A stretch of DNA of 64,000 nucleotides, taken from positions 62,001 to 126,000 of the forward strand of contig PASP01000014.1 in NCBI GenBank assembly GCA_002712005.1, read 5' to 3'. Every line of letters begins with the position of its first letter. The first letter of the stretch is position 1. Both the position numbers and the translations under genes were made by a program. The notes under the pieces were generated by a model. That model did not search any database. It saw only the letters and a list, made by a program, of their open reading frames with translations, and had not been told where the DNA came from. The stretch comes from Halobacteriovoraceae bacterium. Its GTDB lineage: Bacteria > Bdellovibrionota > Bacteriovoracia > Bacteriovoracales > Bacteriovoracaceae. Shown here one piece after another: positions 49,237 through 50,872 of this stretch.

Positions 49237-49257
49237 TTTTTTGACGTTAAATTGACA

Positions 49258-49432
49258 GTGAACCCATGAACTTGACCTTTGGATTTGGCATACTAATTAC
49301 AGGCAAGAGAGATGGGTTCACTACTTGAATAAATAAAATCCCGAATTGTCTCCCTAACTCCTTCCTGGTTCCTAAGGGCTCTGTTGCCGAATTTGTCCTT
49401 TATAACCGAAAAAAGCATAAAGTAGTGAACCC
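49258..49432. repeat. Three-part mutually exclusive inverted repeat
   Basis: Element A AGTGAACCCAT (49258-49268) pairs perfectly (11 bp) with B1 ATGGGTTCACT (49312-49322). The same B region as GGGTTCACTACTT (49314-49326) pairs perfectly (13 bp) with C AAGTAGTGAACCC (49420-49432). A-B and B-C cannot form together. Between B and C two CCGAATTTGTC-like words repeat. No ORF lies here. The layout suggests an RNA switch or attenuator, or three operator half-sites in DNA. Confidence 0.6.
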
Positions 49433-49480
49433 TTCCTGCCTTTGACTCAAATATTGTAATTCTTTTTTTTTCGAATTTCG

Positions 49481-49489: not shown

Positions 49490-49495
49490 GTGCTC

Positions 49496-49819
49496 TTGAA
49501 TAGAATAATATTTTTAATCACATTATTTCTAACTTTATCTCTTTCTCAATTTCATGAAAGAGTTGATCAGCCCGTCCATTCTGTACAGACAACTTATAAA
49601 TCTGAACTTGGTCTTCCGCTTTTTAATTCAATTGAAAAACAGAGTTCCCGTGCACAGAATCTTTTCTCTGGATTTTCTCCTTATGTAGAATTAAGAGACA
49701 CGCCCTTATTGGGAAGTCTTCAGTATCTCTATTTCCAATATCATGAAGAGAGTCTTCTCAAATTAAAGCACTCTTATCTCTACAGTCATTCAGGCTTAAG
49801 CCCTCCCTTTTTAAGCTAA
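49496..49819 (+). CDS. Small secreted or membrane-anchored protein
   Basis: About 107 residues from TTG 49496 (an in-frame GTG at 49490 adds two residues). Hydrophobic N-terminus MNRIIFLITLFLTLSLSQF could be a signal peptide or anchor. The rest has no recognised family. Weak start context makes this call uncertain, but the signal sequence supports a real gene. Confidence 0.45.
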   Translation: MNRIIFLITLFLTLSLSQFHERVDQPVHSVQTTYKSELGLPLFNSIEKQSSRAQNLFSGFSPYVELRDTPLLGSLQYLYFQYHEESLLKLKHSYLYSHSGLSPPFLS

Positions 49820-49863
49820 ATATAGCCAATGAAATTCAGTTATTTTAGCTAGAGGAGGAATCC

Positions 49864-49995
49864 ATGTCAGATTCTAGAGATAGCGAAAATAAGAAAGCAA
49901 GAAAACTAAATGGGAATTTAGGACTTTATCTCTTTATTCTATTCTTTGCTTTCAGATTTTTCGGTGCCATCATATTTGAAACTCTTTCAAAATAG
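49864..49995 (+). CDS. 43-residue single-pass membrane protein
   Basis: A small gene with an excellent Shine-Dalgarno (GAGGAGG 5-11 nt before the ATG at 49864). A charged N-terminus (about 1-18) is followed by a membrane helix LYLFILFFAFRFFGAIIF and a short tail, ending in TAG at 49993. Position before the DUF3124 lipoprotein suggests co-transcription. Function unknown. Confidence 0.6.
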   Translation: MSDSRDSENKKARKLNGNLGLYLFILFFAFRFFGAIIFETLSK

Positions 49996-50057
49996 TAAGG
50001 CCAAAAGAATATCGGGAGGGAAGTAAACCTCCCTTTATTTCACAAAAGGAAAGATAT

Positions 50058-50573
50058 ATGAAGAAAACAATATTTATTTTAGCCGTATTGGTTTTTCAAG
50101 TTTCTTGTGTTGATCAAAAGGTGCAAGAAGCTCCAAAAGAAATTCCAATGGCCACTGAATTTAAGCCTGCAGAAGGGGTTCGAAAATTAATGGGACAAAA
50201 GCTTTATGTTCCGATCTATTCCAGTATCTACAGTCAATTTGAAGAGAACTTACTCCACCTAACTGCTATTTTAAGCTTGAGAAATACTTCATTTAAAGAA
50301 AAGATCACCATATTAAATGTTGATTATTACGATACCAATGGAAAGTTGATCAAGCGCTATATAGATAAGCCTTTTACTTTGGGTGTCCTCTCGACTAAGG
50401 ACTTTGTAATCGCTGAAAATGATCTTCAAGGGGGAACGGGAGCAAACTTTATCGTTGAATGGTCTTCAGATAAAAAGGTTTCTACACCACTCGTAGAGTC
50501 CGTCATGATGGGGATTTCAGGTACGAAGGGCTTTTCCTTTAGTTCAAGAAGCAAAGAAATTGAAGCCCATTAA
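50058..50573 (+). CDS. DUF3124 lipoprotein
   Basis: 171 residues. Lipoprotein signal with Cys in FQVSC. The mature part matches DUF3124: YVPIYSSIY, LTAILSLRNTS, VDYYDTNGKLIKRYI, GVLSTKDFVIAENDLQGGTGANFIVEW, VESVMMGISGTKGFSFSSR. Function of the family is not known. The stop is 3 nt from the 3' end of the convergent rnpB. Confidence 0.8.
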   Translation: MKKTIFILAVLVFQVSCVDQKVQEAPKEIPMATEFKPAEGVRKLMGQKLYVPIYSSIYSQFEENLLHLTAILSLRNTSFKEKITILNVDYYDTNGKLIKRYIDKPFTLGVLSTKDFVIAENDLQGGTGANFIVEWSSDKKVSTPLVESVMMGISGTKGFSFSSRSKEIEAH

Positions 50574-50576
50574 AAA

Positions 50577-50872
50577 GACCGAGAGTAGGTGTAAGCCGGG
50601 TTCTGTCGAGAAACACCATTCATCTAGGCCATGGGTTACCCCACAGCTCGAGCATCCTACCCGTCTACACAGACTGGCCGCCTGATGAGTAGACCTATTT
50701 GGATTTGCACCACGTAGAGTTTACCTGATTTCACTACAGCCGAACTGTACTTGCTTTCTGTTGCACTTGTCCTCACCTCACGGTGGACGGGCATTACCCG
50801 CTACGCTGCCATATAGTGCCCGGACTTTCCTCCCGCGCCGAAGCGCCGGCGATGTTTTCCCACTCTCGGTAA
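50577..50872 (-). ncRNA. rnpB: RNase P RNA
   Basis: On the minus strand the 5' ACCGAGAGTGGG pairs with the 3' CTACTCTCGGT as helix P1. Bacterial type A core words are present: GAGGAAAGTCCGGGC near the 5' side, ACAGAAAG...TTCGGCT in the middle, and GAACCCGGCTTA near the 3' end. The gene is about 295 nt, shorter than the 377 nt of E. coli, so peripheral helices are probably reduced. A TATACT -10 (50880-50875) lies just upstream of the 5' end. It is the RNA component that matures tRNA 5' ends. Confidence 0.93.

Follow-up and report, generated by a model that had tools for sequence, protein, structure and literature searches.

A predicted structured small RNA gene convergent with rnpB in a genus of Bacteriovoracaceae

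Background

Several described RNAs invite comparison with the element reported here. In Xanthomonas, sX13 is a 115-nt small RNA that acts independently of Hfq, via C-rich loops (PMC3771888). Our element is of similar size, has stable stems exposing C-rich motifs, and is proposed to act in the same Hfq-free manner (PMC3771888). However, sX13 forms three separate stem-loops beside polA, whereas here one long helix closes a single large loop beside rnpB; the likeness is one of size, exposed motifs and proposed action and not of shown homology. The element also recalls 6S RNA (RF00013), another free-standing gene whose ends are joined by a long helix. The genome under study has its 6S match elsewhere, however (G000:C4:82416-82601, away from the element), and the element itself does not match the 6S model.

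In the predatory relative Bdellovibrio bacteriovorus, RNA-seq identified attack-phase small RNAs and merRNA, which are intergenic and 98-655 nt long (PMC3627812). Our element is likewise intergenic, but the Bdellovibrio RNAs come from another bacterial family and were identified by RNA-seq; the element is likened to them by description. Moreover, merRNA includes a c-di-GMP riboswitch, and our locus shows no match to one. Our literature search turned up no publication on the noncoding RNAs of this bacterial group. The prediction would add a genus-restricted and previously undescribed family of structured small RNAs, of an ordinary kind, to a Bdellovibrio-like lineage whose riboregulators have barely been studied.

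Results and discussion

A predicted small RNA gene facing rnpB

The window, as we call the 64-kb stretch of DNA analysed, contains three short segments, A, B and C. A sequence-only reading of this DNA had claimed that A and C both match B perfectly, and this was borne out: arm A (AGTGAACCCAT, 49257-49267, + strand) pairs with ATGGGTTCACT (49312-49322) at 11 of 11 positions, and arms B (GGGTTCACTACTT, 49314-49326, +) and C (AAGTAGTGAACCC, 49420-49432, +) form 13 of 13 Watson-Crick pairs. The arms had been located correctly except for the start of the whole, which had been set one base off, since A begins at 49257. The A-B match alone is unremarkable, because perfect 11-bp inverted repeats at most 150 nt apart arise at about four independent places in the window, in line with the few that its size leads one to expect. 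The B-C pairing is the highest-GC long-range stem of at least 12 bp in the window, with 6 GC pairs versus 1-5 in seven others. Given B, a match of A's length appeared in the promoter-like block described below in 1 of 20,000 dinucleotide shuffles, a figure that applies to an arm picked by eye from a large window.

Positions 49301-49446 (+) very probably constitute a structured small RNA gene, whose start is predicted to within about 2 nt and whose 3' end is uncertain. The window RNA would measure about 145 nt, and the other six copies about 105-125 nt. Its fold has a z-score of -3.0, and none of 200 shuffled sequences was as stable. Arms B and C are the 5' and 3' sides of the main closing helix, outside which AGGCA (49301-49305, +) pairs with TGCCT (49437-49441, +) in a short outer stem, formed in other species by GGGC with GCCU or GCCC. 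All seven folds have the same plan: a short outer stem and an internal bulge, followed by a main helix of 13-18 bp and a C-rich interior, with a small hairpin toward the interior's 3' side in the folds of most copies.

The interior in the window (49327-49419, +) is C-rich and G-poor and contains six UCC. It includes GTCTCCC (49348-49354, +), CTCCTTCC (49358-49365, +) and the hairpin core TTGCCGAA (49384-49391, +). Across the five closest relatives CTTCTCCC, ATGTCC, GATTT and GCCGA show no change, and in five of the seven species the UCC count exceeds that of composition shuffles. A T-run 3' of the outer stem (49463-49471, +) may serve in termination; no strong intrinsic terminator was found. 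As for peptide coding, no open reading frame is common to all seven copies.

Rfam 15 gave no family at an E-value of 5-10 or better in window positions 49240-49480. At loci L022 and L023, from two relatives, only rnpB was credible among the Rfam matches; a chance lncRNA match (E 1.5), which scores far under the threshold of its family, overlaps the end of the element in L023 by a few bases.

The convergent neighbour in the window is rnpB, encoding the class A RNase P RNA (50576-50868, -; RF00010, 221 bits). In five relatives the first gene 3' of the element is rnpB, read from the opposite strand, and in G001, G002, G003, G005 and G006 its 3' end lies about 20-60 bp past the element. In the window the distance is 1.1 kb, so this copy is not a tail of rnpB. 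A 109-amino acid open reading frame, with no Pfam or NCBIfam match, and a gene for a DUF3124 protein occupy the intervening positions 49490-50573.

Conservation and covariation

The element occurs in every one of the seven species sampled from a Bacteriovoracaceae genus (the window genome and G001 to G006, the whole of our sample for the genus), always convergent with rnpB. A DNA search of 39 genomes matched only about 50 nt on the 5' side of the arms, in G001 and G006, both members of this genus. In both, the sequence 3' of the matched block is different but keeps the plan of the element: a long inverted repeat around a C-rich interior, adjoining rnpB. Collecting the rnpB loci of the family allowed us to recognise the element by sequence in G001, G002, G003, G005 and G006, while that of G004 was recognised by a 15-bp stem at the corresponding place.

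Stem letters vary widely among these species, and compensatory changes maintain the pairing: each of the six relatives has a corresponding helix of 13-18 bp made of other letters. In an alignment of five relatives, four pairs have changed on both sides and 92.6% of cells are paired; 2-4 of 500 shuffles match the observed pairing, and shifting the register leaves only 23-60% paired. When the window and G004 are added, nearly every helix position differs in pair type and is still paired, with the register chosen by eye for both. For this reason the independent test is a covariance model, R2, built from the five relatives without the window and G004. R2 recovers G004 with 21.6 bits (E 5e-5 in 83 kb) and the window copy at 49301-49449 (+) with 12.0 bits (E 4e-4 in a search limited to a 321-nt locus), both on the predicted strand and beginning within one base of the independently predicted start. 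The window copy is too diverged for detection by a genome-wide covariance search, so its membership rests on its locus, promoter-like block, plan and local R2 score taken together. Comparison of the seven species shows that helix, interior motifs, upstream block and locus are all conserved. The sequence of the helix turns over fast while its pairing persists.

The pairing conserved in relatives is that of B with C, not that of A with B. The A-B match is private to the window species; in each of the six relatives the longest complement measures 4-6 nt.

A promoter-like block upstream

On the 5' side of the predicted RNA lies a putative promoter, AAATTGACA...CATGAACTTGACC...GGCATACTAA (49249-49296, +; about 48-52 nt). 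It comprises TTGAC boxes at 49252-49257 and 49272-49277, with a spacing of 20 bp, and a -10-like hexamer CATACT (49289-49294), a CATAYT box. The block is 82-83% identical over about 50 nt in G001 and G006, is recognisable in all seven species, and was found once per genome, allowing 0-1 mismatch, in five genomes. No good -35 element stands 16-18 bp from the CATACT box, and promoter prediction gives no promoter here. The arrangement of TTGAC and CATAYT boxes is unlike sigma-70 spacing and may imply an activator. Arm A lies within this block, and the predicted start is 34 nt 3' of it; A would then be promoter DNA, outside the RNA fold.

A match to the block in G009 (L024) was rejected as it falls inside a coding gene. 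In G001, a short tandem repeat of GGTGGCA units stands immediately 5' of the block (L022, about 1560-1600).

Proposed function and alternative readings

With modest confidence, we favour the view that the locus as a whole is a promoter-driven small RNA that acts in trans without Hfq, through pairing of UCC motifs with ribosome-binding sites. The RNA would be transcribed from about 49301 under its own promoter; the long B-C helix and the short outer stem would join its 5' and 3' ends and display the C-rich interior as a loop, in which repeated UCC motifs would pair with purine-rich ribosome-binding sites of mRNAs and repress their translation. The closing helix would be a scaffold for stability, its sequence free to change. 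We infer this mode of pairing from the UCC-rich, G-poor interior, which is the complement of purine-rich sites. The element does combine a free-standing structured RNA showing covariation with C-rich, UCC-bearing motifs predicted to be unpaired. Against a model Shine-Dalgarno sequence, however, the duplex energy of the interior was not stronger than that of dinucleotide shuffles, the best P-value being 0.05 in G004. Taking the structured small RNA gene as given, we regard this mechanism as tentative, a little short of an even chance. Neither Hfq nor ProQ was found by Pfam matches in any of the seven genus genomes (G000 to G006), while CsrA is present in all seven.

Could the locus encode something else? 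The lack of an Hfq match in the genus, together with a long helix that brings both ends together and encloses a large unpaired region, and with pairing targets that are unproven, would also suit a structural RNA that does not act by base pairing and binds a protein or the polymerase, like a second 6S RNA. This is unlikely, as the 6S model matches once per genus genome, elsewhere, the region has no Rfam match, and the interior is one-sided and C-rich, unlike a promoter-like bubble. The presence of CsrA raises a different question, that of the strand. UCC on the + strand is GGA on the minus strand, whose interior carries 3-6 GGA and which runs on in the direction of rnpB, so that a minus-strand transcript, either a read-through tail of rnpB or a separate RNA, could sequester CsrA through a GGA-rich loop in the manner of the CsrB and RsmY sponges. 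We consider this quite unlikely. Read on the + strand, the helices contain 7 G-U against 1 A-C (one-sided P = 0.035, on as few as eight events), and an excess of G-U over A-C is expected if the + strand is the RNA. In addition, a conserved block adjoins the + element on its 5' side and none adjoins the other side, and in the window 1.1 kb with opposite-strand genes separates the element from rnpB.

The sequence-only reading had interpreted the three arms as switch-like, or else B and C as the ends of a MITE-like element. The structured RNA with its B-C stem is strongly supported by our analysis, whereas the mutually exclusive use of A and C is not. In the window itself the two pairings are perfect and mutually exclusive, and a 221-nt fold beginning 5' of A does use A-B. 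Yet A lies 5' of the predicted start, A-B is missing in six of six relatives and Rfam is negative. With rnpB next on the opposite strand in five relatives, these copies have no gene in cis that they could attenuate. The lack of A-B in relatives and of a sense-strand gene next downstream in most of them excludes a riboswitch or attenuator for the family, and makes one controlling the downstream gene at 49490 in the window highly improbable. The other interpretation takes B and C as terminal repeats of a MITE, and their 13-bp perfect inverted ends and 119-bp span have that appearance. Its probability is negligible: the genome holds one copy, seven species carry the element at the same, orthologous place with ends that have diverged, and there is no target duplication. 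A search for further genomic copies of the 13-mer found 81 matches with at most 2 mismatches, fewer than the 169 of a reversed control.

Origin of the three-part repeat

The perfect match of A to B, private to this species, may be a trace of mutation. At A, the sister species G001 differs little (AGAGAACCCAT) but it has another stem, so A probably predates B and C in the window. Template switching has been documented for RNA genes (PMC8794818), and a switch from A to B to C would explain all three arms: A, in the promoter, would have been copied as its reverse complement into B, and B would then have templated C. One or two events would then have exchanged the entire RNA helix without loss of pairing, with the three-part repeat as the footprint. 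We think it unlikely that such a mutation from the promoter rewrote both helix arms in this species, but if true it would be a concrete bacterial case of how paired stems change on both sides at once (PMC8794818).

Distribution outside the genus

Among 30 rnpB loci checked, all five from within the genus have a GC-containing stem of at least 12 bp at the element's place. The 25 from other genera include three (L047, L062 and L068) with any stem of that length, AT-rich in each case, and none with the architecture of the element. When 84,980 named species were scanned with a sequence pattern, the five close copies were recovered, all from MAGs of Bacteriovoracaceae or Bacteriovoracales. Eight further matches are about the number expected by chance for such a pattern, and none of the five examined among them resembled the element. 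Plasmids gave no match. Covariance matches outside the genus (E 0.001-0.1 per genome) were rejected as chance hits, seven of the eight best examined lying within open reading frames.

A distinct intergenic, small RNA-like stretch was seen in G008, of genus g3 (L081, 1501-1597, -). Upstream of it stands a sigma-54-like box, TTGGCAC-N5-TTGCT, and the stretch has UCUCC motifs and a T-run preceded by a strong hairpin; the model gives weak matches in two further g3 genomes, which may be orthologues of this stretch.
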